In this document: piece after piece, positions 37,334 through 62,029 of the stretch
Numbering within the stretch: position 1 is the first letter of the stretch
Layout: each line of letters opens with the position of its first letter
Source of the DNA: an uncultured Prevotellaceae bacterium
GTDB taxonomy: Bacteria > Bacteroidota > Bacteroidia > Bacteroidales > Bacteroidaceae
Assembly (NCBI GenBank): GCA_902767775.1
Contig: CACXIP010000008.1
Span: 1-64,000, forward strand
DNA: 64,000 bases
Direction: 5' to 3'
Notes under the pieces: model-generated
What the model was told of the DNA's origin: nothing
Database searches by the model: none
What the model saw: the letters and a program-made list of their open reading frames with translations, nothing else
Position numbers and translations under genes: made by a program

Positions 37334-37365
37334 TTTGCATGTTAAATAGGTCTTTCCTATCTTTG
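37334..37365 (+). promoter_or_regulatory. Polyene locus promoter P1
   Basis: TTTG at 37334-37337, 20 nt, TATCTTTG at 37358-37365: a textbook Bacteroidetes promoter. Confidence 0.75.
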
Positions 37366-37393
37366 TTAACGCGAAGATAAGTTGCACCTCGGT

Positions 37394-37431
37394 AATACAA
37401 AAATCAAAAAATTGCTTTTTTGTTTTGTATT
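37394..37431. promoter_or_regulatory. A/T-rich hairpin between P1 and P2
   Basis: Stem AATACAAAA + CAAAAAA (2-nt bulge between) pairs with TTTTTTG + TTTTGTATT around a TTGC loop, 16 bp in all. It lies in the P1 leader and covers the P2 -33 TTTG. It could attenuate P1 transcripts or be a protein-binding palindrome. Confidence 0.6.
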
Positions 37432-37454
37432 GCTCTCGGTTTGCACTATCTTTG
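37424..37454 (+). promoter_or_regulatory. Polyene locus promoter P2
   Basis: TTTG at 37424-37427, 19 nt, TATCTTTG at 37447-37454, about 71 nt before the first start codon. Confidence 0.78.
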
Positions 37455-37525
37455 CACTTTATTATATAACGGATACCAATGTTTAAAGGGGGTGAAATCA
37501 TCCTAAAAACTGACTATTACAAAAC

Positions 37526-38257
37526 ATGAAATATGCTTTAGTGACAGGCGCTTCCAGAGGGATAGGCAAGGCCATCTCATTGCGTTTGGCTGCAAAGGGG
37601 ATACCTGTCGTTGTCAATTATTTGAAAAACAAGGATGCTGCAGAGGCCGTAGTAGCCCAAATTCAGGAGGCTGGTGGAATGGCGGAGTTGTTGCCATTCG
37701 ATGCCTCTCAGCCCAGTGAGATAGAGAAAGCCCTGGATGCTTGGGAGGAAGCACATCCTGATGACCATATCTATATTTTGGTGAACAATGCCGGCATCCG
37801 GCGTGACAACGTGATGTTCATGATGTCGGATGACGAATGGCATAGTGTGCTCGACACCACACTCAACGGTTTCTTCTATATCACACGGCGGTTGCTCAAG
37901 CACATGATGCCCAGAAAACGAGGTGGGAGAATCGTCAATGTCGCCTCCTTGTCAGGATTGAAAGGACTGCCGGGACAAACCAATTACAGCGCAGCCAAAG
38001 CGGCTCTTATAGGCGCCACTAAGGCTCTTGCTCAGGAGGTGGCTCCAAGGGGAGTCACCGTCAATGCCATTGCTCCGGGCTTCATCGAGACAGATATGAC
38101 CAAGGACCTTGCAGAAGAGGAACTGAGAAAACTCATCCCCATGGGGCGCTTTGGCAAACCCGAGGAAGTGGCTGCTTTGGTTGAATTTCTTGTTTCCGAT
38201 GGGGCAGCATACATAACAGGAGAGGTAATCAATATCAACGGTGGCTTATATACATAA
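37526..38257 (+). CDS. fabG: 3-oxoacyl-ACP reductase (FabG-like), polyene locus
   Basis: A 243-residue short-chain dehydrogenase. NADPH-binding TGASRGIGKAI is at the N-terminus, NNAGIRRD in the middle, and the catalytic Ser...Tyr154-x3-Lys158 in YSAAK. The C-terminus is ITGEVININGGLYT, as in FabG. It should reduce the beta-keto group after each condensation, and is the only ketoreductase in the locus. It is the first gene of the 25-gene run and 3 nt from the next ketosynthase. It is probably a dedicated paralogue, not the primary fatty-acid FabG (inference from context). Confidence 0.9.
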   Translation: MKYALVTGASRGIGKAISLRLAAKGIPVVVNYLKNKDAAEAVVAQIQEAGGMAELLPFDASQPSEIEKALDAWEEAHPDDHIYILVNNAGIRRDNVMFMMSDDEWHSVLDTTLNGFFYITRRLLKHMMPRKRGGRIVNVASLSGLKGLPGQTNYSAAKAALIGATKALAQEVAPRGVTVNAIAPGFIETDMTKDLAEEELRKLIPMGRFGKPEEVAALVEFLVSDGAAYITGEVININGGLYT

Positions 38258-38260
38258 CAG

Positions 38261-39487
38261 ATGGCAAGAAGAGTTGTAATAACAGGAATGGGAATCTGGT
38301 CGTGTTTAGGGACAGATATCAATACCGTTAAGGATTCTCTGTATTTTGGGAAGTCTGGTATTGGTTTTCAACCCGAGCGTCTGGAATATGGCTATCGTTC
38401 TGGATTGACAGGCATTGTAGAGGAACCCGTCATCACGAAGCAGATGTTGGACCGCCATACCCGTGCCGGTATGTCGGAAGAGGCCCGGTATGCCTACATG
38501 GCCAGCAAACAAGCATTCACGCAGGCAAATATGGATGACCAATATCTTCGGGAGAATGAAGTGGGTTGTATTTTTGGAAACGACTCCTCAGCCAAACCTG
38601 TGATTGAGGCATCCAAAATCATGGATGAGAAGCACGACTCAGCCATGTTGGGCTATGGACTGATATTCCAATCGATGAACTCAACCGTGAACATGAACCT
38701 CAGCACCATCTTCCGTTTGCGTGGCGTCAACTTCACAGTCAGTGCGGCGTGTGCCAGCGGAAGCCACTCGATAGGATTGGGGTATATGTTGATTAAACAG
38801 GGGTTGCAGGAGATGGTGCTTTGCGGAGGAGCTCAGGAGACGAACTATTACTCCATGGCTTCATTTGATGCACTTGGAGCCTTCTCCGTCAGGATGGACG
38901 AGCCTGCCAAAGCCAGCCGACCATTCGACAAGGACAGAGACGGTCTGATACCGAGTGGTGGTGCCGCAGCCCTGGTGTTGGAAGACTACGACCATGCCGT
39001 TGCCCGTGGAGCCGATATCCTGGCAGAAGTTGTGGGATATGGATTCTCCAGCAATGGGGGCGGCATATCCGAGGCAAGCGATGCTGGCAGCGTGACAGCG
39101 ATGTCGAGAGCCATCAAAGACGCAGGCATAGCACTTGATGACATTGACTATATCAATGCCCATGCCACATCCACCCATCAAGGAGACATGTATGAGGCCA
39201 TAGCCCTCAACAAACTGTTTCACGGACAGAGGGCATTGATCAGCAGCACGAAGTCCATGACCGGACATGAGTGCTGGATGGCGGGTGCAAGCGAGATAGT
39301 GTATTCCATCATCATGATGCAGAATAATTTTGTTGCGCCCAATATCAATTTTGAAAATCCTGACGAGTATTCGGAAAAAATCAACATCACACCAAAGACT
39401 GTGGAGATGGAGGTCAACACGGTCCTCAGCAACTCCTTTGGGTTTGGTGGAACCAATTCTGCATTAGTCATCAAAAAATTCAGATAA
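38261..39487 (+). CDS. Beta-ketoacyl-ACP synthase (KS1), FabB/F-like
   Basis: A 408-residue condensing enzyme. The full Cys-His-His triad is present: Cys164 (SAACASGSHSIG), His301 (NAHATSTHQGD) and His336 (KSMTGHECWM), with the C-terminal NSFGFGGTNSALV. It is paired with the ketoreductase by a 3-nt gap, as is common in APE loci where a KS and KR are adjacent. It probably performs decarboxylative condensation with malonyl-ACP, either at initiation or as an auxiliary KS; its division of labour with KS2 and KS3 cannot be read from the sequence. Confidence 0.92.
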   Translation: MARRVVITGMGIWSCLGTDINTVKDSLYFGKSGIGFQPERLEYGYRSGLTGIVEEPVITKQMLDRHTRAGMSEEARYAYMASKQAFTQANMDDQYLRENEVGCIFGNDSSAKPVIEASKIMDEKHDSAMLGYGLIFQSMNSTVNMNLSTIFRLRGVNFTVSAACASGSHSIGLGYMLIKQGLQEMVLCGGAQETNYYSMASFDALGAFSVRMDEPAKASRPFDKDRDGLIPSGGAAALVLEDYDHAVARGADILAEVVGYGFSSNGGGISEASDAGSVTAMSRAIKDAGIALDDIDYINAHATSTHQGDMYEAIALNKLFHGQRALISSTKSMTGHECWMAGASEIVYSIIMMQNNFVAPNINFENPDEYSEKINITPKTVEMEVNTVLSNSFGFGGTNSALVIKKFR

Positions 39488-39558: not shown

Positions 39559-40662
39559 ATGAGATTAAGTCCCGCATTACAGAAACAATATACAAAGGAA
39601 CAATTATCTGCTCGTGATGCACAGCGACTGGCTGAGTTCATCGCGTGGGGACCTGTTGTTTTCCAAGCCTCACGATTGATGTTGAAGTTCGGCATTCTTG
39701 ACCTGATACGAGATGCGGAAGAAGGACTGACGAGGCAGGAAATCGTTGAGAAGACCCAATTGTCGGACTATGCGGTGAAATGTCTTCTGGAGGCATCACT
39801 ATGCATTGGCACGATATTGGTGAACCCCGAGACAGAAAGGTTTACCATTTCCAAGACAGGATGGTTTTTGATTAATGACCCTGCCACCCGTGTGAATATT
39901 GACTTCAACCATGATGTCAACTACAAGGGATGGTTTGATTTGGAAGCGTCATTGCTCAATGGGAGACCAGAGGGACTGAAACAATGGGGAGACTGGCCCA
40001 CCGTGTATGAGGGACTGTCAAGTTTGCCCGGTCAGGTACAGAAAAGTTGGTTCGGATTTGACCATTTTTACAGCGATTCGTCTTTTCCCGAGGCTCTGAG
40101 AATCATTTTCGACGAGTGCCATGTCCGGTCGTTGTATGATGTAGGAGGCAATACAGGTAAGTGGGCCCTGCAATGTGTTGGTTATGACAAGGATGTGGAA
40201 GTCACCATTTTGGACTTGCCCCAGCAGATTAAGATGATGCAGGAGAACATCGCGGGAAAGGAGGGCGAGGACCGCATCAAAGGATACGGTATCAACCTCC
40301 TGGATGAGACTGCAGCCTTTCCAAAACGTGACGGAGGGCTTGATGCCATTTGGATGAGCCAATTCCTCGATTGTTTCAGCATGGAGGAAATCGTGGGGAT
40401 ACTGAAGCGTGCCAAGGCTGCCATGACCTCGCAGACACGTGTCTACATCATGGAGACGTTATGGGACAGGCAGAAATATGAGCCAGCTGCCTTCTGTCTG
40501 ACGATGACCAGCCTGTATTTTACAGCAATAGCCAACGGCAATTCGAAGATGTATAATACAGAAGACATGGAAACTTGTATTGACGCAGCCGGACTGAAAA
40601 TAGAGAGAATTGTTGACCATTTGGGACAAGGTCATTCCATTTTGATATGCAGACTAAAATAA
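39559..40662 (+). CDS. SAM-dependent O-methyltransferase-like protein
   Basis: A 367-residue protein with the two-part layout of small-molecule O-methyltransferases. An N-terminal winged-helix/dimerisation part (residues about 10-110, FGILDLIRDAEEGLTRQEIVEKTQLS) is followed by a Rossmann domain with motif I LYDVGGNTGKWAL, DLPQQIKMM and the segment ISMSQFLDCF-like (DAIWMSQFLDCFSMEEIVGIL). Methyltransferases of this kind occur in APE loci and methylate the aryl head group (family knowledge). A 71-nt gap separates it from KS1, the largest in the operon. Confidence 0.85.
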   Translation: MRLSPALQKQYTKEQLSARDAQRLAEFIAWGPVVFQASRLMLKFGILDLIRDAEEGLTRQEIVEKTQLSDYAVKCLLEASLCIGTILVNPETERFTISKTGWFLINDPATRVNIDFNHDVNYKGWFDLEASLLNGRPEGLKQWGDWPTVYEGLSSLPGQVQKSWFGFDHFYSDSSFPEALRIIFDECHVRSLYDVGGNTGKWALQCVGYDKDVEVTILDLPQQIKMMQENIAGKEGEDRIKGYGINLLDETAAFPKRDGGLDAIWMSQFLDCFSMEEIVGILKRAKAAMTSQTRVYIMETLWDRQKYEPAAFCLTMTSLYFTAIANGNSKMYNTEDMETCIDAAGLKIERIVDHLGQGHSILICRLK

Positions 40663-40679
40663 ATAATATTTTGATAAAA

Positions 40680-40922
40680 ATGACAAGAACAGAAATTGAA
40701 GAGAAAGTACGGGAATTCCTGATAGAGGATCTCGAAATTGATGAGGAAAAAATCACTGTCGATGCCAAACTGAAAGACGACCTTGGAATAGACAGTCTTG
40801 ATTTTGTTGACATCGTTGTTATCGTTGAAAAGAAATTCGGATTTAAAATCAAACCCGAAGAAATGGCCAATGTGCTCACATTCAGCCAATTCTGCGACTA
40901 TATTGAGAGCAAGGTAGGGTAA
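40680..40922 (+). CDS. Acyl carrier protein (ACP1)
   Basis: An 80-residue acidic four-helix carrier. The phosphopantetheine serine is Ser39 in LGIDSLDFVDIV. The start is the ATG at 40680 (MTRTEIEEKVREFL), 18 nt after the methyltransferase stop. It carries the growing chain or starter as a thioester; one of three ACPs in the locus. Confidence 0.93.
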   Translation: MTRTEIEEKVREFLIEDLEIDEEKITVDAKLKDDLGIDSLDFVDIVVIVEKKFGFKIKPEEMANVLTFSQFCDYIESKVG

Positions 40923-40930
40923 TCGCGGTT

Positions 40931-41839
40931 ATGCTTTCTCACGAGGATTGGAAGGGAAACACAGGAGGCACCACATGGATGCAGAGAACGCTGATAGGTT
41001 TTGTAGGATTTGTCGGCATTCGTCCTATTTATGTCATTATGGGACTATTTGTGGCGCCTTTCTATATGCTTTTCAATCATAAAGGCTATACCTCGATTTA
41101 TCATTATTTTCGCAAGCGACAGGGATTCGGGTGGTGGAAATCATTCCGTTACTCCTATCTCAACCACTATCGGTTTGGACAAATCATCATCGACCGGTTT
41201 GCAGCTTACGCCGGCTGCAAGTTTCAGTTCGAATTGGAAGGAAACGACATCTTCCTTGACCTGATGAGTGGAGATGAGGGAGTCATCATTCTCAGCAGCC
41301 ATGTGGGTAACTATGAGCTGGCAGGATACTCTTTTGCTGCGACTGAAAAGCGGTACAATGCCCTCGTCTTTTCCGGTGAGACAAAGACCGTGATGGAGAA
41401 CCGCAACCGCATGCTCTCCAAAAACAACATCAAGATGATACCTGTCAGTGAGGACATGTCACATGTCTTCCTCATGAATGCAGCGTTGGCAGACGGAGAG
41501 GTGGTCAGCATACCGGGAGACCGTATCTTTGGTTCCCGCAAAAGTGTGGTGTGTGATTTCATGGGAGGACAGGCATCCTTTCCTTTAGGTCCATTTTCCC
41601 TTGCTGTTCAAAGAGAGGCACCAACAATCGCTATCTTCGTGATGAAGGAGTCGGCATACAAATACCAGGTCTTTATCAGGAGAATAGCGACAGACGATAC
41701 AGTCAAATTGGACAAGAAAACAAAAACAGGAAGGATGGTGCAGTCCTTTGCCAAAGAACTGGAAGACATTCTGCGGCGATATCCCGAGCAATGGTTTAAC
41801 TATTATGAATTTTGGCATGACAGGCCCAACCAATCTTAA
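40931..41839 (+). CDS. LpxL/HtrB-type lysophospholipid acyltransferase
   Basis: A 302-residue membrane-associated acyltransferase. It has an N-terminal hydrophobic segment (about 15-45), the HX4E motif His124-Glu129 (SSHVGNYELAG), and the second block IPGDRIFGSRKSV. Family members move acyl groups from ACP to lipid acceptors; here it may move the polyene acyl chain to a lipid (inference). Its last 23 nt overlap the downstream hotdog gene. It is the first of four LPLAT-type domains in the locus. Confidence 0.87.
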   Translation: MLSHEDWKGNTGGTTWMQRTLIGFVGFVGIRPIYVIMGLFVAPFYMLFNHKGYTSIYHYFRKRQGFGWWKSFRYSYLNHYRFGQIIIDRFAAYAGCKFQFELEGNDIFLDLMSGDEGVIILSSHVGNYELAGYSFAATEKRYNALVFSGETKTVMENRNRMLSKNNIKMIPVSEDMSHVFLMNAALADGEVVSIPGDRIFGSRKSVVCDFMGGQASFPLGPFSLAVQREAPTIAIFVMKESAYKYQVFIRRIATDDTVKLDKKTKTGRMVQSFAKELEDILRRYPEQWFNYYEFWHDRPNQS

Positions 41840-42275
41840 TGAGATAGACGTCTTGACGCTGTTGCCACAACGCCGGCCGTTTGTGATGATTGACCACCTG
41901 ACACATTGTGACCAGGTGCTGACAACCACCACTTTGGAGGTGCGTGAAGACAATCTCTTCGTGGAAGGCGACCATCTCAATCCGTGTGCGTTGGTGGAAA
42001 ACATCGCCCAGACATGCGCAGCAAGGATGGGGTATATCAACAAATATGTGTATCAGGGAGAAGTGAAACTGGGCTTTATTGGCGGCATCAAAAACTTTTG
42101 CTTGCAAAGACCTGCTGTTCTGGGTGAAACACTCACCACGACAATAGAGGTGATAGAAGAGGTCATGCAGATGATACTTGTGAATGCCTATGTCAGGGTT
42201 GGTGATGAAACCATTGCTACTGCGGAGATGAAAATAGCCCAAACCGATATAGAAGTGGGAAAAAGTGATGAATGA
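41817..42275 (+). CDS. FabZ-like hotdog dehydratase subunit (Glu-retaining)
   Basis: A hotdog-fold protein of about 152 residues. LLPQRRPFVMIDHL matches the FabZ N-terminal motif, and the helix ALVENIAQTCAA keeps the catalytic-position Glu61 of FabZ (LILEAMAQ). The loop that normally carries the catalytic His (GHFPGxPxxPG) is shortened to EGDHLNPC: H53 lies only 8 residues before the Glu, not 14. It may therefore work only with a partner subunit, the most obvious being the protein at 45211-45573. The start is chosen from MTGPTNLNEIDVL; upstream in-frame Mets at 41748 and 41805 are alternatives. Confidence 0.82.
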   Translation: MTGPTNLNEIDVLTLLPQRRPFVMIDHLTHCDQVLTTTTLEVREDNLFVEGDHLNPCALVENIAQTCAARMGYINKYVYQGEVKLGFIGGIKNFCLQRPAVLGETLTTTIEVIEEVMQMILVNAYVRVGDETIATAEMKIAQTDIEVGKSDE

Positions 42276-42696
42276 GGAAATCATACTGAAAGCCAGTAAG
42301 GAGTTTGACATCCGTTTTAGTGAGGTAGACTCCATGAATGTGGTATGGCATGGTTCATACCCGCTGTATTTCGAAGATGCGCGAGAGGAATTCGGAAGGA
42401 AATACAAGTTGGAATATCTTAGGATAGCGGAGTTTGGCTATTATGCGCCATTGGTGGATATGCAAATCCACTACAAGAAACCCCTTGCCTATCAGATGAA
42501 ACCGCGCATAGACATCATCTACCGTCCAACAGAAGCTGCCAAGATAGTGTTTGATTATGAAATCTACAACACGGAGACGGATGAACTGATGGCAACAGGC
42601 AGAACCGTACAGGTATTCATGGACAAGAACTATCAATTGGTTTGGATTACACCCGATTTCTATCAGGAATGGAAACGGATGTGGAATTTGATTTGA
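42268..42696 (+). CDS. 4HBT-type acyl thioesterase
   Basis: A 142-residue hotdog thioesterase of the YbgC/4-hydroxybenzoyl-CoA thioesterase type: FSEVDSMNVVWHGSYPLYFEDAREEF is the signature region with the conserved Asp. It overlaps the preceding dehydratase gene. In a polyene locus it could release stalled or finished chains from ACP or hydrolyse wrong starters (inference). The ATG at 42268 is preferred over the adjacent GTG. Confidence 0.87.
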   Translation: MNEEIILKASKEFDIRFSEVDSMNVVWHGSYPLYFEDAREEFGRKYKLEYLRIAEFGYYAPLVDMQIHYKKPLAYQMKPRIDIIYRPTEAAKIVFDYEIYNTETDELMATGRTVQVFMDKNYQLVWITPDFYQEWKRMWNLI

Positions 42697-42744: not shown

Positions 42745-43002
42745 ATGAAAGAATTGACTAATGAATTGAAGGAACATATCATCGATGTCCTCAATCTTGA
42801 GGAGATGACTCCTGAGGATATAGACAACGACGCACCCTTGTTCGGAGAAGGGCTGGGGCTGGATTCAATTGATGCATTGGAACTGATAGTGATGCTTGAG
42901 AAGGTATATGGCATCAAAATCAAAGACCCTTCCGCAGGAAAGGAGATTTTCAAATCAGTCAGTACAATGGCTGAGTTTGTGGAGAAAAACAGAGTTAAAT
43001 AA
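42745..43002 (+). CDS. Acyl carrier protein (ACP2)
   Basis: An 85-residue ACP with Ser41 in GLGLDSIDALELIVMLEKVYG. It lies between the thioesterase and KS2, 16 nt before KS2, so it probably serves the KS2/CLF pair. Confidence 0.93.
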   Translation: MKELTNELKEHIIDVLNLEEMTPEDIDNDAPLFGEGLGLDSIDALELIVMLEKVYGIKIKDPSAGKEIFKSVSTMAEFVEKNRVK

Positions 43003-43017: not shown

Positions 43018-44220
43018 ATGACAGGGCAAATAGTAATAACGGGTGCAGGCATCGTCTCAGCCATTGGCAATAATATGGCTGAGACAGTCCGCTCGTTATG
43101 CTCGGAGAAGACCGGAGTCGGCATCCTGCGACACCTCAATACCACACATAAGGAATTTCCTGTGGGGGAGGTGAAGATGAGTGACTATGACATGAAACGT
43201 CTTCTACATATCTCTGATGAGCCGACCACAAGGACAGCCTTGATGGGCATGCTCTCCATCAAAGAGGCTCTTGAGGCAGCATCTCTCTCAGAAAGAGAAG
43301 GCCTCAGCATCGCATTGGTGTCAGGGACAACTGTCGGTGGTATGGATAAGAGTGAGCAATATTATCTGGACTATTTGGGAAATGATTCCCGAAATGAGTA
43401 TATCAAGGCCCATGACTGTGGAGCAACAACAGAAATGATGGCCGATTATTTCGGGGGCTTCTCGTTGGTGACAAGCATTTCCACAGCTTGCTCTTCTGCA
43501 GCCAATGCCATCATCATGGGAGCCAATCTCATCAGAGGTGGAATCGTGGACATGGCTGTGGTAGGAGGAGCAGAGTGTCTGACGAAATTCCATCTCAATG
43601 GTTTCAATTCCCTCATGATTCTTGACCATGAGCAATGCAAGCCTTTTGATGCCTGCCGGGCAGGACTGAATCTGGGTGAAGGTGCTTCCTTCATCGTGAT
43701 GGAGACCGCAGAGTCGGCACAAAAGAGAGGGGCGCATGTGATGGCGGTGTTGAGCGGTTATGGGAATGCCAGTGATGCCTATCATCAGACGGCATCCAGC
43801 GACCAGGGCGATGGCGCCTATCTGTCGATGCAAAAAGCATTGAATATGGCTGGACTGCAACCAGAGGACATTGATTATATCAATGCACATGGAACTGGGA
43901 CCCCCAACAACGACATGAGTGAGAGCCAAGCCCTCTTGCGTGTCTTCGGCGAGCACATGCCCCTGGTATCCTCGACCAAGGGGATGACAGGTCATACTAC
44001 CAGTGCCTCAGGGGCGGTGGAGACTACCATTTGCCTGATGGCTTTGCAGCATGGCATTGTTCCTGTCAACTATGGATGGAAAACACCGATGGAAAACGGA
44101 ATCATCCCATCGATGTCTGTCAAAGCAGAGAACCCCCTACGGCATATCATGTGCAACTCTTTTGGTTTTGGAGGAAACGACTCCAGTCTGATTATTTCAA
44201 GATACGACCATGAGCAATAA
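43018..44220 (+). CDS. Beta-ketoacyl-ACP synthase (KS2), catalytic partner of the CLF
   Basis: A 400-residue FabF-like condensing enzyme with an intact triad: Cys158 (STACSSAANAI), His291 (NAHGTGTPNND) and His326 (KGMTGHTTSASGAVE). Its stop overlaps the start of the CLF-like gene by 11 nt, the usual arrangement for KS-CLF heterodimers of type II polyketide systems, including the KS:CLF pair of APE synthesis. It is the best candidate for the iterative chain-elongating KS. Confidence 0.93.
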   Translation: MTGQIVITGAGIVSAIGNNMAETVRSLCSEKTGVGILRHLNTTHKEFPVGEVKMSDYDMKRLLHISDEPTTRTALMGMLSIKEALEAASLSEREGLSIALVSGTTVGGMDKSEQYYLDYLGNDSRNEYIKAHDCGATTEMMADYFGGFSLVTSISTACSSAANAIIMGANLIRGGIVDMAVVGGAECLTKFHLNGFNSLMILDHEQCKPFDACRAGLNLGEGASFIVMETAESAQKRGAHVMAVLSGYGNASDAYHQTASSDQGDGAYLSMQKALNMAGLQPEDIDYINAHGTGTPNNDMSESQALLRVFGEHMPLVSSTKGMTGHTTSASGAVETTICLMALQHGIVPVNYGWKTPMENGIIPSMSVKAENPLRHIMCNSFGFGGNDSSLIISRYDHEQ

Positions 44221-45214
44221 GGTATTCATCAAAACAGCAACACAAATCTCCATCCAGCAGCCGCTCAGCGAAAAGTGGATGGAGTGTCCTGCCATATATG
44301 ATGAACCATATACCAGAAGCATCGAGCCGAATTTTCGTGACTGGATGGGGTTGATGGAATCGAGACGAATGGGGAAAATCCTGAAAAGGGCATTGGTGAC
44401 AGCAACAAAGGCTATGGATGATGCTGCCGTTCCCCAACCAGATGCTATCATCACGGGAACAGGACTGGGCTGTATCGAAAACACGGAAGTGTTGTTGGAA
44501 CAACTTTTCAATGAGGGAGAGGAAATGCTCAAGCCCACTTGTTTCATGCAGTCCACACACAATACCATCAGTTCGCTGATTTCCATCAACAGGAAATGCC
44601 ACGGCTACAATTCTACTTACAGCCACAAAAGTGTCTCCTTTGAAAGTGCCCTGATGGATGCTTTCTTACAGATAAGATTGGGGGATATCCAGACCGCACT
44701 TGTCACTGGTAATGATGAGATGACACCATCTTATTTCAAAATACTGCAACGAACAGGTTTTTTAGGTCAAACAGGTCAGGTGACTGCCGGAGAGGCCTCT
44801 GCGGCGATGGTGCTGACCACAACCCCTAAGGATGCATTGTGTATGCTGAAAGATGTGAGGTTATCTTATAAAATGCCACAGCTAGACGGTCTGCCAAAAG
44901 ATGTGGACGCAATCATGGTAGGTACCAATGGCTGTGAGAACAACGACCGTGTGTATAAGCAACTGGCAGAATTGTGCCCAAAAGTTCCCTTGCTTCACTA
45001 CAAACACATTTTTGGAGAAAGCTATACGGCATCTGCATTAGGAATATACGCATCCGCCCACATCTTGAAACGAGGTGAGGCACCCGCTTTCATGAGATGT
45101 GAGAAATGCGCCCAACCACTTCCCGTTTCACGATTGCTTTTTGTCAATCATAGCGACGGAAAGTGTTTTTCATACGTGTTGATGAGTTCAATAAATAACG
45201 AGCAGGCGATATGA
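44210..45214 (+). CDS. Chain-length-factor-like ketosynthase (no active-site Cys)
   Basis: A 334-residue protein of the Ketoacyl-synt_2 type. In the stretch NSTYSHKSVSFESALMDA, the position of the KS cysteine is taken by Ser141, and the C-terminal His motifs are not evident, so it should not condense by itself. It overlaps both KS2 (upstream) and the second hotdog subunit (downstream, ATGA). It probably forms a heterodimer with KS2 and shapes the chain-length pocket. The HNTISSLISINRKCHGYNSTY segment recurs in the C-terminal half domain of KS3. Confidence 0.87.
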   Translation: MSNKVFIKTATQISIQQPLSEKWMECPAIYDEPYTRSIEPNFRDWMGLMESRRMGKILKRALVTATKAMDDAAVPQPDAIITGTGLGCIENTEVLLEQLFNEGEEMLKPTCFMQSTHNTISSLISINRKCHGYNSTYSHKSVSFESALMDAFLQIRLGDIQTALVTGNDEMTPSYFKILQRTGFLGQTGQVTAGEASAAMVLTTTPKDALCMLKDVRLSYKMPQLDGLPKDVDAIMVGTNGCENNDRVYKQLAELCPKVPLLHYKHIFGESYTASALGIYASAHILKRGEAPAFMRCEKCAQPLPVSRLLFVNHSDGKCFSYVLMSSINNEQAI

Positions 45215-45573
45215 GGTTGTTAAACGATATGTTCTCTGTCAGCAAATGGAGTGATGACCGCATTCAAATCCAGATGAACGCAGGCCATCCCATTTATCAA
45301 GCTCATTTCCCAGGAAATCCCATCACACCGGGGGTATGTATAGTAAAGATAATCGGCGAACTTTTAGGTCAGATGTTCAAATGTGATGTTTCGTTGACCA
45401 AGATAGTCAATCTGAAATTCATTGCTCCCATCTCGCCTGTGTCTTATCCTGCAATCGACATCGTGTGGACTGCAGCAGAGAAAAATGCCGAGGAGGTGAA
45501 AGCCAAAGGTGCCATCATGTCGAATGACAAGATGTTGACCAAGTTTTCACTCGTATTCAACGAAGTCAAGTAA
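45211..45573 (+). CDS. FabZ-like hotdog dehydratase subunit (His-retaining)
   Basis: A 120-residue hotdog protein with the FabZ motif AHFPGNPITPGV. His32 matches the catalytic FabZ histidine, but the partner Glu, expected 14 residues later (LILE in FabZ), is Lys46 (CIVKIIGELLG). The losses are complementary to those of the 41817 protein. A heterodimer would have one composite active site with His from here and Glu from there, as FabZ sites are built across the dimer. It is probably the 3-hydroxyacyl-ACP dehydratase that makes each double bond. Confidence 0.85.
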   Translation: MRLLNDMFSVSKWSDDRIQIQMNAGHPIYQAHFPGNPITPGVCIVKIIGELLGQMFKCDVSLTKIVNLKFIAPISPVSYPAIDIVWTAAEKNAEEVKAKGAIMSNDKMLTKFSLVFNEVK

Positions 45574-46894: not shown

Positions 46895-47254
46895 ATGAAG
46901 GTACCCAAGGAATACTATGATGAAGTCTTTCATTTTGAAGACAGATGGGGTTTGCCCTCGGCATGTGGCCTGAAAATAAGGCATCATGATGGCAAGGCCT
47001 ATGTCATTGTGACGGAATTGTATCAGGAGAATCCAGGCACCAGCATCACCTATGCGGGTGAAACACTTGTGGAGCAAATCTGCAGCGCAAAGCAGTTGGA
47101 CCCGTCACAAATAGTATATATTGAATGTGCTCCAGACACCAACTCCAAACTGTCGTTTTATGATGAGGAGTATTTCATGGTGGATTTCGGGGCCGATTTG
47201 CGACATCGGTATCATCAGTTGGACGCTGATGAAGTAAAAAAGATTTTGCAATAA
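46895..47254 (+). CDS. Small protein of unknown function in the polyene locus
   Basis: A 119-residue soluble protein with no signal peptide or membrane helix. It has an acidic, aromatic-rich sequence (KEYYDEVFHFEDRWGLPSACG; SFYDEEYFMVDFGADLRHRYHQLD) with a mixed alpha/beta pattern and one Cys. A good ribosome-binding site (GGAGAAGAAGG) precedes the ATG, and it sits 11 nt after the radical SAM gene, so it may be that enzyme's partner. I do not recognise a family. Confidence 0.7.
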   Translation: MKVPKEYYDEVFHFEDRWGLPSACGLKIRHHDGKAYVIVTELYQENPGTSITYAGETLVEQICSAKQLDPSQIVYIECAPDTNSKLSFYDEEYFMVDFGADLRHRYHQLDADEVKKILQ

Positions 47255-48964: not shown

Positions 48965-48979
48965 AAGGAGAACTAAGTG

Positions 48980-49333
48980 ATGTGGAGATTGTTGTGTTTT
49001 TCTGTCGTACAGTGCATCCTTTTGGTGGGAGGTCAGGTGTTGCTGAAATTCTCCATGATGCGGATGCCGGCATTCAGTTGGTCGAAAACCTTTTGGCTGG
49101 GGCTTCTGACCAATTGGCAGTTTGCCCTTTGCGGTCTCCTCTTTGGTGCGGCATCATTGCTGTGGATGTATATTGTGAAAACGTTCCCTTTCAGCATGGC
49201 CTATCCAATGATCAGCCTAAGCTACGTTTTTGGAATGTTTGCCGCCATGTTTTTTTTCCATGAGGATATATCCCTCATCAGATGGATGGGCGTGGCATGT
49301 ATTATTGTTGGATGTGTTTTAATTGCAAAATAA
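48980..49333 (+). CDS. Small four-helix DMT/EamA-like membrane protein
   Basis: A 117-residue protein with four hydrophobic segments (about 4-24, 36-60, 68-86, 92-115). It resembles single-domain EamA/SMR proteins such as the ArnE/ArnF half-flippases: FGAASLLWMYIVKTFPFSMAYPMISLSYVFG is the helix-3 signature. The RBS AAAAGGAG is strong; the ATG at 48980 is preferred over GTG at 48977. Together with the GT2-LPLAT it may handle a lipid-linked sugar intermediate (inference). Its stop overlaps the LolA-like start (TAATG). Confidence 0.8.
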   Translation: MWRLLCFSVVQCILLVGGQVLLKFSMMRMPAFSWSKTFWLGLLTNWQFALCGLLFGAASLLWMYIVKTFPFSMAYPMISLSYVFGMFAAMFFFHEDISLIRWMGVACIIVGCVLIAK

Positions 49334-53358: not shown

Positions 53359-54866
53359 GGCAGTCCGTCGTTGTCATAGGAGCAGGTTTGGGAGGTCTTT
53401 TCACGGGTGCCTTTCTTGCAAAAGAGGGCTTTCGTGTCACTCTGCTTGAGAAGAATGCGTCCATCGGTGGTGGGCTTCAGACTTTTCAGCGATTTGGCGA
53501 GACTTTTGACACAGGGATGCATGTGGTGGGAGGCATGTATCCTGGGGGTAACGTCAGAAAGATATGCAACTATCTGGGTATTTTCGACCGACTGAAGCTG
53601 CGTGATGTGGATGATGACTGCACCGACAGCATGTATTTTGCTGAGGACAAGAAGTGTTATTCGGTAGCGAGAGGAAAAGAGGGCTTCGCATTGTCTTTGT
53701 CTTCCTTCTTTCCTCATGAGTCGGACAACCTCAGACGGTATGTGGATGCCCTTTTCGACCTTACCGACAAGGTGGACTTATTTAACCTCAGACCCTCAAA
53801 CGGACAATTGTCGCTTTTCACTGGCTCTGATGATTTCCTGCTGTCGGCGGAAGACTTCATTGCCAAATACATAGGTGACGAGAAACTGCGCAGTGTGCTG
53901 GCATTTATGAATCCGCTTTATGGAGGCAGAAAAGGGCAGACCCCCGCTTATATTCATGCCATCATCAGCAGTTTGTATATCAAAGGAACCAGCCGTTTTG
54001 TTGACGGCAGCAGCCACATGGCCGACCTGCTGGCAGAAGTCATCACCTCTCATGGAGGAGAGGTACTCACCAATGAGCCAGTGGAGTGGATTGAGGTCAA
54101 TGACCGTAAGGTGGATGGTGTGAGGACAAAAAGTGGCAGGCAGTTCATTGCCGATTATTACATTTCAGCCATACACCCCTGCACCATGTTCCATCTGATG
54201 GATGAGGGTGCGCTGCCCCGTGCATATCGCAATCGCTTGAATTCCATACCCAATGCCCATTCTGCCTTCTCCTTGTTTATTAAGTTGAAGCCCAAATGTT
54301 TTCCTTATATCAACCATTCAGAATATTATATGACACGATATGAGGATGTGTGGAACTTCAGCCGTGCAGACAAGCCATGGCCATTGGGATTCCTCTTCAT
54401 GACACCGCCGAGTTCCAATCAAGGGGAGTTCAGCAGTAAGGCATTGGTGACAGCCCCCATGCCCTTTGAGATGGTGTCGAAGTGGGAGTCGACCAAAGTG
54501 GGCCGACGAGGCGATGACTATGTCAGATGGAAGCAAGAGAAAGCGTGTCAGCTGCTGCAACTCATTGAGGATATCCATCCAGGATTTGAGGCGTGTATCG
54601 ACAGCATGAATACCGCATCTCCGCTTACTATCCGCGACTATTATGGTGCAAAGGATGGGACGATATGTGGTTTCAGCAAAGACTGCCACAATATCGCCTT
54701 GTCACAGGTTCCTGTTGTCACTAAGATACGCAATCTGTTGCTGACAGGACAGAACAACAATCTCCATGGCATATGTGGGGTTCCCCTTACTGCTATCCAG
54801 ACGTGTGAGGCCATTTTGGGCAACAATTATCTCATTAATAAAATCAACGCATGGAACGAAGGCTGA
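53355..54866 (+). CDS. CrtI/carotenoid-isomerase-like FAD oxidoreductase 2
   Basis: A 503-residue paralogue of the preceding protein, coupled by an ATGA overlap. It shares GAGLGGLFTGAFLAKEGF, TLLEKNASIGGGLQ, the FDTGMHVVGG segment and the C-terminal LLTGQNNNLHGICGVPL. Retained FAD motifs in both suggest that both are active, perhaps as a heterodimer or in consecutive steps. The reaction is unknown. Confidence 0.9.
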   Translation: MRQSVVVIGAGLGGLFTGAFLAKEGFRVTLLEKNASIGGGLQTFQRFGETFDTGMHVVGGMYPGGNVRKICNYLGIFDRLKLRDVDDDCTDSMYFAEDKKCYSVARGKEGFALSLSSFFPHESDNLRRYVDALFDLTDKVDLFNLRPSNGQLSLFTGSDDFLLSAEDFIAKYIGDEKLRSVLAFMNPLYGGRKGQTPAYIHAIISSLYIKGTSRFVDGSSHMADLLAEVITSHGGEVLTNEPVEWIEVNDRKVDGVRTKSGRQFIADYYISAIHPCTMFHLMDEGALPRAYRNRLNSIPNAHSAFSLFIKLKPKCFPYINHSEYYMTRYEDVWNFSRADKPWPLGFLFMTPPSSNQGEFSSKALVTAPMPFEMVSKWESTKVGRRGDDYVRWKQEKACQLLQLIEDIHPGFEACIDSMNTASPLTIRDYYGAKDGTICGFSKDCHNIALSQVPVVTKIRNLLLTGQNNNLHGICGVPLTAIQTCEAILGNNYLINKINAWNEG

Positions 54867-55702
54867 TACTAGTCATATTGTTCATGGTCATCCAATTCCA
54901 TGCATGGTCCCAGGTCAATATCTGGGAAGGGACATCGTGTGGAAAGAAGGTCATGCTGACTCCCTATGTGGCAGCTGGAAAAGACAACCCTGGGATTATC
55001 GTGTGTCCGGGAGGAAGCTATTTCTGGCATGATATGGAGGCTGAGGGTCACGATGTGGGACGATGGCTTCGTGACAATGGCATATCGGCTTTTGTCCTGA
55101 AATATAGGACTGCGGCTTTTCCTGCATTTTCCCTTCATTTCCGGCTTCTTTTCCGCGGCAACAGGTATCCAGACCCGCAGGATGATTTGAGACAGGCCAT
55201 CAGATGGGTCAGGCAGCACGCATCAGAATATGGCGTGGACCCAAAGACGGTTGGAGCCATGGGCTTTTCAGCCGGCGGTCACTTGGTCATGTCAAGTGTG
55301 GAGCTGTTCGACCGTGAGGATTGGCCGGCATTTGTCGTCCCTGTTTATCCTGTGGTGACAATGGTTGAGAATTGTGTTCATAAGCGCTCAAGAAGAGGGC
55401 TGTTGGGTGATTCCAGAACAGGAAACAAACAACTGAAAGATTTGCTCTCTCTGGAGAGACACGTTCCACAGGACTGTCCTCCCGTTTTCTTGGTTAATTG
55501 TGTGGACGACCCCATTGTTGACTTCCGTAACTCGGTGTTGCTCGATTCTGCGCTTTCCGACAAGAAAATCCCGCATCAGTACATCCAATTCCAGACCGGT
55601 GGGCATGGGTTCGGTGCCAGTGAGAAGAAGGTCAACACCGAAACCCGGCAATGGAAGATGCTGTTTTTGAAATGGTTAAATTCAATGATAAGACATATAT
55701 GA
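54851..55702 (+). CDS. Secreted alpha/beta hydrolase in the polyene locus
   Basis: A 283-residue protein with a signal peptide (MERRLILVILFMVIQFHAWSQ). Alpha/beta-hydrolase motifs are IIVCPGGSYFWHDMEAEGH, nucleophile Ser140 in GFSAGGH, Asp in NCVDDPIVDF and His in GGHGFG. It is a paralogue of the GH35-linked esterase (14031-14852; Ser138). It overlaps both neighbours. A periplasmic esterase could trim or transfer an acyl group on the exported lipid; this is inference. Confidence 0.86.
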   Translation: MERRLILVILFMVIQFHAWSQVNIWEGTSCGKKVMLTPYVAAGKDNPGIIVCPGGSYFWHDMEAEGHDVGRWLRDNGISAFVLKYRTAAFPAFSLHFRLLFRGNRYPDPQDDLRQAIRWVRQHASEYGVDPKTVGAMGFSAGGHLVMSSVELFDREDWPAFVVPVYPVVTMVENCVHKRSRRGLLGDSRTGNKQLKDLLSLERHVPQDCPPVFLVNCVDDPIVDFRNSVLLDSALSDKKIPHQYIQFQTGGHGFGASEKKVNTETRQWKMLFLKWLNSMIRHI

Positions 55703-56835
55703 TGAAAAATCCTAAATTCGACGACATTCGTCCTTATTATGAGGACGAGATACCTGCAGCCATGCAGAGGATAGCAAATTATAAGATTTTTCCGCTGTTG
55801 GCATCATTCGTATATCCCAACGAACCCATAGAAGAAGTAAGGAAACGAATCAGTTCGTTTAAGACGGTCAGGGAATTCCAGCATGACACCATGTGGCACG
55901 TCAACGAACAGATTATTTCAAGGAGCATCACCAAGTTCACGGGCTCTGGTTTGGAGAAACTGAATCCTGACAAGCAATATCTGTTTGTCTCCAACCATCG
56001 TGACATCATGCTTGACGCATGCCTGCTTCAGTATTATTTTGTAGCGAATGGTTTTGAGACCACAGAGATTACGTTTGGAGCCAACCTGATGATGAATCCT
56101 GTCGTGATAGATGTAGGCAAAAGCAACAAGATGTTCAAGGTGGAGCGCCCTGGCGGCGACATCAAGGATTTCTACAGGTCATCCATGCATTTGTCGGAGT
56201 ATATCCGATATACCATCAAGGAGAAAAAGCAGTCAGTATGGATTGCCCAACGGAACGGCAGGACCAAAAACGGATTGGACGCAACAGACCAAGGCATCAT
56301 CAAGATGTTTTGCATGAGCGAGCCCAGTGACAAGGTCAAGGCATTGGCAGAATTGAATATCGTGCCGGTATCCGTGTCCTATGAGTGGGAGTCGTGTGAC
56401 ATACTGAAGGCGCTTGAACTGTATGAGTCGCAATACACCCGTTACACGAAGAAGCCTGGCGAAGACCTTAACAGCATTATCACCGGCATTCTCCAACCCA
56501 AGGGAAGGGTGCATTTCGAATTGTGTGAACCCATATCCATGGCTGAGTTGTCCGCCTTGGAGCACCAAACAAAGAATGAATACCACAAGTCTGTTGCCAA
56601 GATAATTGACAGGAGAATCAACACAGCCTACCGGTTGTACCCCAACAATTACATTGCGCATGATTTATTTTATGGAAACACCAAATATCGCTCCATGTAT
56701 ACAAAAGCGGAGTATGATGCGTTTATCAAGCATCTTTCGAAACTCGACAAATATGATACATGCGACATAGAGCGGCTTAAAGACATTTTTGTTGGCATAT
56801 ACTCTAATCCCGTTGACAACAAATTCAGAGAATAA
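55699..56835 (+). CDS. PlsC-type glycerolipid acyltransferase
   Basis: A 378-residue LPLAT. The HX4D motif is in SNHRDIMLDACLL and the second block in RNGRTKNGLDATDQG. The start at 55699 (ATGATG) overlaps the hydrolase stop; the longer frame from 55651 is not needed. There is no fused partner and no strong membrane helix. Similar stand-alone acyltransferases are widespread in Bacteroidetes; here it is the third LPLAT of the locus and is coupled to the MMPL gene by TAATG. Confidence 0.88.
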   Translation: MMKNPKFDDIRPYYEDEIPAAMQRIANYKIFPLLASFVYPNEPIEEVRKRISSFKTVREFQHDTMWHVNEQIISRSITKFTGSGLEKLNPDKQYLFVSNHRDIMLDACLLQYYFVANGFETTEITFGANLMMNPVVIDVGKSNKMFKVERPGGDIKDFYRSSMHLSEYIRYTIKEKKQSVWIAQRNGRTKNGLDATDQGIIKMFCMSEPSDKVKALAELNIVPVSVSYEWESCDILKALELYESQYTRYTKKPGEDLNSIITGILQPKGRVHFELCEPISMAELSALEHQTKNEYHKSVAKIIDRRINTAYRLYPNNYIAHDLFYGNTKYRSMYTKAEYDAFIKHLSKLDKYDTCDIERLKDIFVGIYSNPVDNKFRE

Positions 56836-59800: not shown

Positions 59801-60455
59801 CTATCTTGCAGAGAAATGCGGTCTTGACATCGTTCCCATCCACCTGCATGGAATCAATCATGTGTTTCCCCGCAATACCATCTGCACTTATCCGGGTGAG
59901 GTCACATTGAGGATAGGAAAACGAATATCACATGAGGATTTGTCATGGGGACAAACTTACGTGGAGCGCACGAAATCAATACAGAGATTCTTTGACGGTG
60001 AATTTGAGATGATCAGGCGCAAGAAAGAGACCGCAACCTATTTTGCAAGGTTTGTCGCCGACCGTTACCGATACAAAGGCATTGAGATATCATCTGCCGT
60101 CAGCCGACGGTTGTCGAAATACGACCGTTATGAGAAATGGATTTCAAACGAAGAAGACGAGGTGGGACGCACTGCAATTGTTGTCAACAATCACTGGGGT
60201 GAGATGTCGTTGCTGATGGCCGTCGTATGTCCCAAAATCCGTGTCATCGCCTTGGAGGAAGATGATGACAAGATTGCCGTGGCTTCTTATAGCGCAGAGT
60301 CCGTGGCTCCCAACCTCTCCATTAGGAAGAAGGAGGGTGAGGAGCAGGTCGGGCAATTGATGAATGAAGGTGGAAACAGCATTTTGTACATCATTGAACC
60401 GTCGGACAAAGATTTGGAGATATATAGTCATTATCATCCGGTGATAATCGGATGA
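56835..60455 (+). CDS. MMPL (RND-type) exporter fused to LPLAT and a degenerate methyltransferase-like domain
   Basis: A 1206-residue fusion. Residues 1 to about 855 form an MMPL/HAE-type exporter: one N-terminal helix (about 17-38), a periplasmic domain, a helix bundle at about 272-420, a second periplasmic domain, and a second bundle at about 664-853 (FGQGDDYTIFMTEG). From about 880 on is an LPLAT domain (CNHQSMLDTAYLM; FPEGERNP). The last 190 residues (YRYKGIEISSAVSRRL, then VVNNHWGEMSLLMAV and VIALEEDDDKIAVA) recall a class I methyltransferase whose glycine-rich SAM loop is lost. It should move the lipid-linked polyene across the inner membrane. ACP3 follows by 13 nt. Confidence 0.88.
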   Translation: MTSLIVRIYNWMTGHKTFRLVSAVVIVAILASLLVRQTYKEDISDFLPLNNKYNKALKVYQGISKADRLIAIFEYGDSTESAPDSIVAAVEHFVQVVQENDRDGMVKDLTFQVDYEKVSSIVDFVYGQIPFFLTDADYHRFDSLMGEKDFVSQQIANDKQMLTFPVSALMSENFQRDPLNFFTPVVEQLQNGQPEVVYENYDGLFFSPDMRCAMVMMTSPFGTSETEKNTRLLEFLKTCAQQTTAKFANLQIRFTGGPAIAVGNSSQIKKDSLFSVALAVCLIVLLLFMVFRSAWNLLLIILSIAWGWLFAMGALALIHDSISVIVIGISSVILGIAVNYPLHLIAHMQHTPDIRTALKEIAMPLVVGNITTVGAFLTLVPLKSIALRDLGLFSSMLLIGTILFVLLYLPHLVRVGRHQSESHFLSRIGKVSLESNRWVVGLMLVLTLFFGYYSLQTSFDSDMNHINYLSEEQSKDLRYLQEMMVDSAGSQNVYVVSSDSTMEGALEKSRLVQPVLRELEKEGYIQESNGCSQFLCSREEQARRLRNWETFVGKYGDRFKNEVRAAARKEGFADDTFEDFFNILDADFEPHEISYFDLLASTAFSSYLSADSVGRDYRVVDVLRTDSSNVQQVVNMVEEKAHGQYAFDVGSMNSSIATRLSDDFNYIGWACGLIVFFFLWFSLGSLELAMLSFLPMALSWIWILGIMALLNIHFNVVNIILATFIFGQGDDYTIFMTEGCQYEYAYRRRMLSSYKTSIIISALIMFIGIGTLIFAKHPALHSLAEVTIVGMFSVVLMAYVFPPLIYKWLISKKDGYRERPISLAAFGVTAYCAVVFFTQLFSVYVLGGILFGLLKPNSRTKRFFHEYVRRCFWFDMNRIAGVKFTYENKHEETFSDPAIVICNHQSMLDTAYLMAVFSKISIVANEHASQNRIIRKVFKWLDFYTIPDGGTIDESRIRQLVSQGYSVLIFPEGERNPSSSILRFHKGAFYLAEKCGLDIVPIHLHGINHVFPRNTICTYPGEVTLRIGKRISHEDLSWGQTYVERTKSIQRFFDGEFEMIRRKKETATYFARFVADRYRYKGIEISSAVSRRLSKYDRYEKWISNEEDEVGRTAIVVNNHWGEMSLLMAVVCPKIRVIALEEDDDKIAVASYSAESVAPNLSIRKKEGEEQVGQLMNEGGNSILYIIEPSDKDLEIYSHYHPVIIG

Positions 60456-60468
60456 GCTGTTTTAAAAT

Positions 60469-60705
60469 ATGTCAGAAATGAAAGAGAAGATAAGAGAAAT
60501 GTTGGAGGATGCGCTCCCCTTGGTGGATTTCGACTCGGATTTCTTGTTCCGTGAACTCGACTCACTGGGTGTGACAACCATTTTGATGATGCTGTCGGAC
60601 GAATTTGGAATCAAGCTGGAGTCTACGGATGCGACGCCCAAGAACTTGAAGTCGTTGGACAATATTGTCGCCATGGTGGAGAGAAAAATCAAAGAGCAGA
60701 ACTGA
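60469..60705 (+). CDS. Acyl carrier protein (ACP3)
   Basis: A 78-residue ACP with Ser32 in RELDSLGVTTILMML, an LDSLG variant closer to carrier proteins of adenylation systems. It lies 1 nt before the ligase ATG, so it is the likely acceptor of the ligase-activated starter. Confidence 0.9.
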   Translation: MSEMKEKIREMLEDALPLVDFDSDFLFRELDSLGVTTILMMLSDEFGIKLESTDATPKNLKSLDNIVAMVERKIKEQN

Positions 60706-60706
60706 T

Positions 60707-62029
60707 ATGGTTTTTGAAGATTGCCTTAAGCGAAACGCAGAACTTTATCCTCAGAAAACGGCTGTGGTCTGCGGGGATATGGCATGCACCTATGAGCAGT
60801 TGTATCAACGTACCCTCACCCGGATGGAGGAGTTGGAAAAGCAATATGTCAAAGGACAAATAGTCTGTGTTCGGGTTAGTTCCACGATAGAATATGTCGT
60901 GACTTATTTTGCCCTTCATATGATGGGGTGTGTGGCTGCTCCGATGGAGCACGACATGCCAGAATCCGCCTTTGAGTCGGTCAGGAGGCAATTGGAGCCG
61001 CTCGGCACCCCGGAGGGAACAGCCGACGTGCTGTACACCACAGGTACGACAGGAGAGCCAAAGGGCGTGATGGTGAGTCATCAGGCCATCATCGCTGATG
61101 CGGAGAACCTCATCGACGGGCAGGGTTTCACACACGAACTGGCCTTTGTCGTCAACGGTCCCCTCAACCATATCGGCAGCCTTTCCAAGATTTATCCTGT
61201 GATGATGCTTGGGGCGACGCTGATATTGGTGGATGGCTTGAAAGACATCAACGTGTTTTTCAAGGCTTTTGACTATCCAGCAGATAAGATGGCTACATTC
61301 CTAGTTCCTGCCAGCATCAGGATTATACTGCAGTTCAGTGCCGACCGACTGGCCGCTTACGCCGACAAGATAGACTTTATTGAGACGGGAGCCGCCGCCA
61401 TCTCGTCGGGCGACATGGCACATCTTTGCCGCATCCTGCCCAACAGCAGACTGTACAACACATATGCCTCGACCGAGACGGGCATTATCTGCACTTATAA
61501 TTTCAATGATGGGAAATGCGAGGCTGGCTGTTTGGGCCGTCCGATGAAAAACTCGGGTATCTTCATCACCGAGCAAGGTATGATAGCCTGCCATGGGAAA
61601 ACGTTGATGACGGGATATGCCGGAGAGCCTAAGCGCACGTTGTCTGTCCTTAGGGATGGTGTGGTCTACACCTCAGACTTTGGTGTCATTGATGCAGAGG
61701 GAATGCTGCACTTGTCGGGTAGGATGGGCGATGTCATCAATGTGGGAGGATTCAAGGTCATCCCTACCGATGTGGAGGATGCAGCCATGTCTTTTCCTGG
61801 ATTAAGAGAGTGTGTCTGCATCTCTGTGGAGCATCCCATCACGGGGTCGGCATTGAAATTGCTGGTTGCCATGGAGGATGGTCTTGTGCTCAACAAGCGG
61901 GCATTGGCCCTTCATCTCAAAAATCAATTGGAGACATACAAAATACCCCTCCTCTATGAACAGGTAGAGGCGGTGAGAAGGACATTCAACGGCAAAATAG
62001 ACAGAAAAAGTTATAGGGAGTCTTCCTAA
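60707..62029 (+). CDS. AMP-forming acyl/aryl ligase
   Basis: A 440-residue adenylate-forming enzyme, short for the ANL family. The P-loop YTTGTTGEPKG is at about residues 108-118; YASTETG is the A5 motif; YTSDFGVIDAEG the A7 motif; and GRMGDVINVGGFKV the hinge. The C-terminal lysine is in RTFNGKIDRKSY. It probably activates an aromatic acid and loads ACP3, starting the polyene. The acid is not predictable here; no ammonia lyase or chorismate lyase is in the window. It is the last gene of the operon. Confidence 0.9.
   Translation: MVFEDCLKRNAELYPQKTAVVCGDMACTYEQLYQRTLTRMEELEKQYVKGQIVCVRVSSTIEYVVTYFALHMMGCVAAPMEHDMPESAFESVRRQLEPLGTPEGTADVLYTTGTTGEPKGVMVSHQAIIADAENLIDGQGFTHELAFVVNGPLNHIGSLSKIYPVMMLGATLILVDGLKDINVFFKAFDYPADKMATFLVPASIRIILQFSADRLAAYADKIDFIETGAAAISSGDMAHLCRILPNSRLYNTYASTETGIICTYNFNDGKCEAGCLGRPMKNSGIFITEQGMIACHGKTLMTGYAGEPKRTLSVLRDGVVYTSDFGVIDAEGMLHLSGRMGDVINVGGFKVIPTDVEDAAMSFPGLRECVCISVEHPITGSALKLLVAMEDGLVLNKRALALHLKNQLETYKIPLLYEQVEAVRRTFNGKIDRKSYRESS

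Follow-up and report, generated by a model that had tools for sequence, protein, structure and literature searches.

Class of the locus

The question raised by the locus described here is whether it encodes a new class of aryl-polyene pathway or a variant of one that is already known. It comprises 25 plus-strand genes (37526-62029, from the reading of open reading frames and domains) in a 64,000-nucleotide stretch of DNA, hereafter the window, from an uncultured Prevotellaceae bacterium; the window is part of a 142-kb contig (CACXIP010000008.1) in a 4.64-Mb genome. By its predicted proteins, the locus is a flexirubin-type (flx) aryl-polyene cluster, a sub-type rather than a new class. It is a variant of already known pigment machinery, by gene content without the usual first enzyme and with a pair of genes, g12-g13, added. 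This assignment is made because FlxB, FlxJ and LolA2 exceed the curated NCBIfam cut-offs and because the core gene order matches that of the Persicobacter psychrovividus pPP6 locus. The genes and the region in front of them are as follows.

37330-37525 (+): putative promoter/leader region; TAnnTTTG motifs at 37330, 37358 and 37447 (pattern match; predicted function)
37526-38257 (+): g01, ketoreductase (KR) FlxB; NF053542 392.8 bits, cut-off 340
38261-39487 (+): g02, ketosynthase KS1; Pfam, active-site motifs, 58% to Persicobacter KS1
39559-40662 (+): g03, FlxJ-family methyltransferase (MT); NF053543 598.3 bits, cut-off 560; 44% to ApeB
40647-40922 (+): g04, acyl carrier protein (ACP) 1; PF00550, DSLD
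40931-41839 (+): g05, lipid A-type acyltransferase; PF03279
41817-42275 (+; start uncertain, 41748 possible): g06, FabZ-like dehydratase (DH), hotdog; no Pfam match, FabZ below cut-off
42265-42696 (+): g07, 4HBT thioesterase (TE), ApeK-like; PF13279, 34% to ApeK
42745-43002 (+): g08, ACP 2, ApeE-like; PF00550, 49% to ApeE
43018-44220 (+): g09, ketosynthase KS2; Pfam, active-site motifs, tree
44210-45214 (+): g10, chain-length factor (CLF); SHKSVS where the active Cys would stand
45211-45573 (+): g11, ApeI-like dehydratase, hotdog; PF07977 and PF22818 (FabA/ApeI) below cut-off, weak blastp match to ApeI (E 8e-6)
45585-46883 (+): g12, B12-binding radical SAM enzyme; PF04055 and PF02310 below Pfam cut-offs, CRYSCYPC, alignments
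46895-47254 (+): g13, small conserved neighbour of g12, of no known family; no Pfam match of weight, alignment
47267-48964 (+): g14, ketosynthase KS3 fused to a second protein of ~200 aa; Pfam, comparison with relatives
48977-49333 (+): g15, EamA-like small membrane protein; PF00892
49282-49962 (+): g16, LolA2 periplasmic carrier; NF053544 231.5 bits, cut-off 125
49913-50365 (+): g17, LolB2-like protein (weak); NF053540 25.3 bits, cut-off 60
50340-51866 (+): g18, GT2 glycosyltransferase (GT) fused to an acyltransferase; PF00535, PF01553
51859-53358 (+): g19, CrtI-like flavoprotein 1; PF01593, CrtD/CrtISO families below cut-off
53355-54866 (+): g20, CrtI-like flavoprotein 2; PF01593, CrtD/CrtISO families below cut-off
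54851-55702 (+): g21, BD-FAE-family esterase with a signal-like N-terminus (by eye); PF20434, AxeA1 below cut-off; GFSAGG, VDD, GGHGF
55651-56835 (+): g22, acyltransferase; PF01553
56835-60455 (+): g23, MMPL exporter with a C-terminal acyltransferase; PF03176, PF01553
60469-60705 (+): g24, ACP 3; PF00550, DSLG
60665-62029 (+): g25, AMP-forming ligase, in the place that FlxY has in relatives; PF00501, PF13193

The domain calls agree with the parts that a preliminary description had listed (three ketosynthases, CLF, KR, hotdogs, TE, three ACPs, a ligase and others), and its 25 co-directional, mostly overlapping genes are real, with overlap at 14 of the 24 junctions, gaps of at most 20 bp at 22 of them and a largest gap of 71 bp. 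The span given there, 37334 to 62029, is correct at its end only, as 37334 is no gene start and the KR gene g01 begins at 37526. The Cys and both His motifs are found in all three ketosynthases (g02, g09 and g14) and the Ser in all three ACPs (g04, g08 and g24), while in the CLF a Ser replaces the Cys, as expected of such a protein. The CxxxCxxC motif of g12 and the esterase motifs of g21 are also present. The protein fused to KS3 in g14 is a separate gene in several relatives.

The flexirubin cluster of Chitinophaga pinensis and Flavobacterium johnsoniae was compared via the Persicobacter locus, whose FlxA and FlxY both exceed their cut-offs. Seventeen of the 25 genes match that locus by blastp and their order is mostly kept. 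Common to both are KR, KS1, KS2, CLF, KS3, two ACPs, the acyltransferase, the MT, the hotdogs, TE, LolA, GT2, MMPL and the CrtI-like genes as well as the overall order. The window locus differs in lacking FlxA, FlxY, the deacetylase and the C45 gene of Persicobacter, and in having g12-g13, EamA, the esterase, g22 and an ACP-ligase pair beyond it. The CrtI-like genes, considered as a novelty of the window locus, were rejected as such, since Persicobacter flx has one; an Aureispira plasmid also carries one, apart from its flx core. For flexirubin-like loci in general, lolA2 and lolB2 are stated to be always present (PMC11885536). The placement among the aryl polyenes proposed earlier is borne out by the three NCBIfam scores and the 17 shared genes, and its separation from flexirubins stands for an altered sub-type and fails for a new class, as the flx models are passed.

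Compared with ApeA-R of the Escherichia coli CFT073 aryl-polyene cluster, homologues are found of KS, CLF, KR, TE, MT, two ACPs, GT/acyltransferase, LolA and MMPL. In blastp searches against ApeA-R the type II polyketide synthase (PKS) set of KS, CLF, KR, DH, ACPs, MT and TE is recovered, with dehydratase matches that are weak (ApeP E 0.018, ApeI E 8e-6). Nine genes (g12, g13, g15, g17, g19-g22 and g24) have no convincing counterpart there, and g06 and g25 have weak ones, which upholds the distinction from the E. coli type that had been drawn before. The E. coli pathway is predicted to start from 4-hydroxybenzoate (PMC8253772; here and below, papers are cited for the parts of their text that were available). 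Similarity to the flexirubin cluster has also been reported for an arylpolyene biosynthetic gene cluster (BGC) of the human gut bacterium Bacteroides xylanisolvens (PMC12940132), likewise a gut flx-like locus by its published description. Another aryl polyene of plant-degrading anaerobes is that of the celluxanthene cluster of Clostridium thermocellum and others, which has a phenylacetate starter and differs in its iterative type I PKS and tetronate product. In the parts of the literature available, no product structure was found for Bacteroidales loci of the window's kind.

Several observations weigh against the flx reading. The Persicobacter MT itself scores 524.3 bits, under the FlxJ cut-off of 560, so that the FlxJ model misses some flx loci. 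The LolB2-like g17 is under the LolB2 cut-off (25.3 vs 60 bits), though adjoining LolA as expected. Both g06 and g11 are under the cut-offs of their dehydratase families, and g25 matches ApeH weakly (23% over 282 aa, E 0.008; blastp). The preliminary description had further pointed to a lack of DarA/DarB. None is seen in the locus, where DarA itself was not searched for, and three KASIII genes elsewhere in the genome formed no DarA-DarB-like pair recognisable by eye, again with no search for DarA; the genes around these, also judged by eye, are of Era/Der-like, acyltransferase-like and polysaccharide types. As a diagnostic sign this absence was rejected, because C. pinensis keeps darA/darB in a locus apart from flx (PMC3992019).

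Loss of the lyase and replacement of FlxY

A genome-wide profile search for FlxA returned a single lyase, HutH, at 353.4 bits against a cut-off of 700, and this gene, considered as a tyrosine ammonia-lyase, was rejected because it lies inside a hut operon. The absence of an ammonia lyase noted before therefore extends from the locus to the whole genome, HutH excepted. The best genome-wide FlxY score was 229.7 against 520 and came from outside the locus, and blastp of g25 against two FlxY proteins yielded nothing significant. Against plasmid records, the best matches of g25 had 25-27% identity and were generic AMP-binding proteins where annotated. By predicted gene content, FlxY is here replaced by a pair of an ACP and an AMP-ligase (g24-g25).

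Relatives of KS2 at E 1e-60 occur in 69 of 375 class-level genomes, and 20 stretches of the 69 were read. Among these, one (G005) is of the window's kind and two (G032 and G561) have a lyase and a deacetylase; the remaining 17 have a deacetylase in 15, EamA in none and a lyase within the 20 kb read in one. Together with the stretches read from the window's family, they let two types be recognised, one with FlxA, deacetylase and C45 (G032, G037, G561 and Persicobacter) and one with EamA, comprising the window and 21 further genomes of its family, without deacetylase and C45. A KS2 tree from a quick search, restricted to loci with KS2 in the flanks and holding several long rows, sets the EamA sub-type (53 rows) apart from the other with an SH-aLRT support of 98.

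FlxA and FlxY were tested in 24 of the 25 KS2-bearing genomes of the family, G011 (37% KS2 match) being omitted. FlxA exceeds its cut-off in three of the 24, two of type one plus the EamA-type G003, and falls under it in 21 of the 22 EamA-type genomes. The FlxA-type tyrosine ammonia-lyase of G003 (L250:13837-15366, 855 bits) lies away from its EamA-type cluster, which lacks one. FlxY is over the cut-off in 11 of the 22 (on another contig in G114), and the ACP3-ligase pair, sought in the loci themselves, is seen in eight. No genome has both and three have neither; two of these (G066 and G106) are cut by contig ends and the third (G122) is near one. In relatives it was also observed that KS2 and CLF are fused in a single 749-aa frame in G110 (L021:7905-10154), that KS2 frames reach 582-606 aa in several other family genomes, and that proteins of 181-190 aa with no Pfam match stand near KS1 in several relatives (L021:2614-3759, L023:2505-3050 and L025:4214-4786), none being seen in the window.

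The radical SAM gene g12 and its partner g13

At 83% identity or more, g12 is found in seven of 151 family genomes, all seven with KS2, and at 62% or more in 37 of 393 genomes of the order, its own included. A phylum sample of 395 genomes returned, at E 1e-45, its own g12 and one 34% match only. A scan of genome contigs gave at least 554 relatives, and the best 80 of these, mostly with 10-kb flanks and some with shorter ones, are termed the 80 closest loci; flanks of this length often do not reach the genes upstream, FlxA among them. In 79 of the 80, g13 follows g12, and the remaining locus stops at a contig end. A matched gene stands before g12 in 76 loci, and the nearest such gene is CrtI-like in 71 of these; after g13 comes the esterase in 71 of 79. 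Anywhere in these loci, g13 is seen in 79, the esterase in 78, GT in 72, g22 in 69 and MMPL in 65. The locus of a cultured bacterium, Caecibacteroides pullorum AN421 (L111), has matches to g12, g13, the esterase, ACP3 and the ligase.

An order-wide set of 29 loci with 1.5-kb flanks, those returned for 36 order genomes, has g13 within 1.5 kb of g12 in 24, one of the misses having 381 bases of room. Here two counts speak against a fixed pigment neighbourhood for g12: the CrtI-like gene is within 1.5 kb in only 13 of the 29 and the esterase in 12. From these order-wide counts, such close packing is particular to the closest loci, and only the g12-g13 link is general. The gene is also dispensable, none being found at E 1e-10 in 15 of the 22 EamA-type family genomes, some of which are incomplete assemblies. 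In G735 and G737, g12-g13 stands beside the deacetylase/C45 type; as this context shows, together with the 15 genomes that lack g12, the pair is an optional companion of flx loci of either type. Near it, both genomes have genes for a sulfotransferase and a BtrH_N-DUF4872 protein (L282:9427-15645 and L290:2458-4858), to which G735 adds an ACP, a phosphopantetheinyl transferase and an acyltransferase-domain protein. Such a neighbourhood may be the mark of a further acyl or sulfated lipid pathway.

As regards family, g12 shares its domain make-up with TIGR04013, HpnJ, TIGR04072 and BchE and scores far below all their cut-offs, TIGR04013 being the best and HpnJ ranking above TIGR04072. Among PDB sequences it has a single match at E 0.01, the apramycin biosynthetic oxidoreductase 6fd2. 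For g13, no trusted match was obtained in Pfam, PHROG or PDB sequences; TALE-repeat chains of the PDB reached E values down to 2e-5 with no stretch passing alone, and this candidate was judged to be chance. Two distant radical SAM relatives (27-31%; G021 and G407) have neighbours that match none of the operon genes. The g12-g13 pair most likely tailors the polyene or its head. No paper joining flexirubin with a radical SAM enzyme was found, in a search that left out most subscription papers and is no proof of novelty.

Proposed pathway and alternative explanations

We consider it probable that the 25 genes act as one operon, whose products build a flexirubin-type aryl-polyene lipid, anchor it and export it in a Bacteroidales cell that is presumably anaerobic. 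The core steps would follow from family knowledge; the starter, the tailoring and the final lipid we infer. First, g25 could activate an aromatic acid and load it onto the ACP g24, in place of FlxA plus FlxY, after which KS2/CLF and KS1 would extend it with malonyl units, FlxB would reduce and g06 and g11 would dehydrate, giving a growing conjugated polyene. By its family, FlxJ is expected to methylate the aromatic head, the CrtI-like flavoproteins may alter the polyene's oxidation level or its isomeric form, and g12 and g13 may add an extra, optional change to head or chain. By analogy with aryl-polyene and flexirubin loci, the thioesterase, acyltransferases, GT2 and EamA proteins could couple the acid with a (glyco)lipid, for delivery to the outer membrane by MMPL, LolA2 and the LolB2-like protein.

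A plant hydroxycinnamate (4-coumarate or ferulate), freed from dietary arabinoxylan by the predicted secreted BD-FAE-like esterase g21, is a possible but unlikely starter; with such a supply, a tyrosine ammonia-lyase would be unnecessary in herbivore-gut bacteria. FlxA is missing over cut-off from 21 of the 22 EamA-type family genomes, yet ten of these 21 have FlxY, and the Chitinophaga FlxY homologue is a 4-coumarate-CoA ligase (PMC3992019). The founder of the BD-FAE family is a feruloyl and acetylxylan esterase (PMC8165983), the esterase usually follows g13 in the 80 closest loci (71 of 79), and many of these loci bear the names of isolates from herbivore guts. Against this, sampling of rumen genomes is heavy, FlxA-holding clusters have the esterase as well (G722, G822 and G835), none was noticed in the stretches examined from several FlxA-less genomes (G118, G023, G049, G050 and G088), and more distant BD-FAE homologues are described from alginate loci or outside such loci (PMC8165983). 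Equally doubtful is a phenylacetate or 4-hydroxyphenylacetate starter from anaerobic amino-acid breakdown, loaded by g25 on g24. It would fit the fact that g25 is not FlxY and has a precedent in the celluxanthenes of cellulose-degrading anaerobes, with their phenylacetate-derived aryl polyene (PMC12144888), but celluxanthenes come from an iterative type I PKS system, to which no gene in the window locus points, and FlxY in sister genomes argues for C6-C3 acids in the same lineage. That both novelties hold together, with g12-g13 adding a step new to aryl polyenes and herbivore-gut Bacteroidaceae starting the pigment from a scavenged plant phenolic rather than their own tyrosine, seems to us decidedly improbable.

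Other roles for g12 appear weaker still. Because the window has a radical SAM gene and no lyase, it was at first thought likely that g12-g13 stands in for the tyrosine ammonia-lyase as the source of the aromatic starter, and none of the seven radical-SAM genomes of the family, nor seven of the 36 elsewhere in the order, has FlxA over cut-off. Yet in one of the latter seven (G586) FlxA is divided between two contigs, with a piece on each, and the other 29 of the 36 have FlxA over cut-off (FlxY in 32 of the 36), which refutes the substitution as a general rule. FlxA shares a contig with g12 within 50 kb in 13 of these 29. In G722, G822 and G835 the lyase, a FlxY-like ligase and g12-g13 even occur in one cluster, ordered in G722 as FlxA-KR-KS1-MT-ACP-LPLAT-DH-TE-KS3-ACP-KS2-CLF-EamA-LolA-DH-GT-MMPL-CrtI-rSAM-g13-esterase-FlxY-LPLAT (rSAM, radical SAM). 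A FlxA-like gene also lies beside the cluster in three of the 80 closest loci, one of which (L083) was scanned and passes FlxA at 840 bits, and 14 FlxA-less EamA-type family genomes lack g12 as well. We thus regard substitution as barely credible, and the loss of the lyase as a matter separate from the radical SAM enzyme, since 29 of the 36 radical-SAM genomes keep FlxA. Ring closure on the polyene by g12 and the CrtI-like enzymes, as has been proposed for ladderane lipids, is slightly less remote and still very unlikely. It could draw on a weak match of g12 to the ladderane B12 radical SAM family TIGR04072 and on the CrtI-like gene preceding g12 in 71 of 76 of the 80 closest loci; the score is 43.8 bits against a cut-off of 360, though, with TIGR04013 and HpnJ higher and none at cut-off, only 13 of the 29 order-wide loci have a CrtI-like gene close to g12, and Persicobacter flx already has such a gene without the radical SAM.

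By its predicted genes, the locus departs from flexirubin biosynthesis in three ways: the committed lyase is lost, an ACP-ligase pair stands in for the CoA ligase, and there is a conserved B12 radical SAM enzyme whose neighbour belongs to no known family. The distinctive features of the locus are its EamA sub-type without deacetylase and C45, the lost lyase with the swapped FlxY, and the g12-g13 pair. Of the 14,814 BGCs predicted from 8,160 rumen genomes, 2,800 are aryl-polyene clusters, second in number after non-ribosomal peptide synthetases (PMC8241843). Should the pair alter the polyene, an abundant type of envelope lipid would gain a tailoring reaction new to it, and pigment production would be linked to the supply of B12.

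Surroundings of the operon

The G+C content is 47.3% in the operon and 49.8% in the remaining window. The motif TAnnTTTG in the putative leader is one that we take to be promoter-like in Bacteroidota. Immediately upstream, on the same strand (34821-37209), are a gene for an FGE-sulfatase-like protein and an outer-membrane beta-barrel gene. Downstream, from 62098 onward and also on this strand (L277:2098-4602), an 834-aa protein with a signal-like N-terminus is encoded, which by eye resembles an outer-membrane carboxypeptidase-regulatory-like protein.

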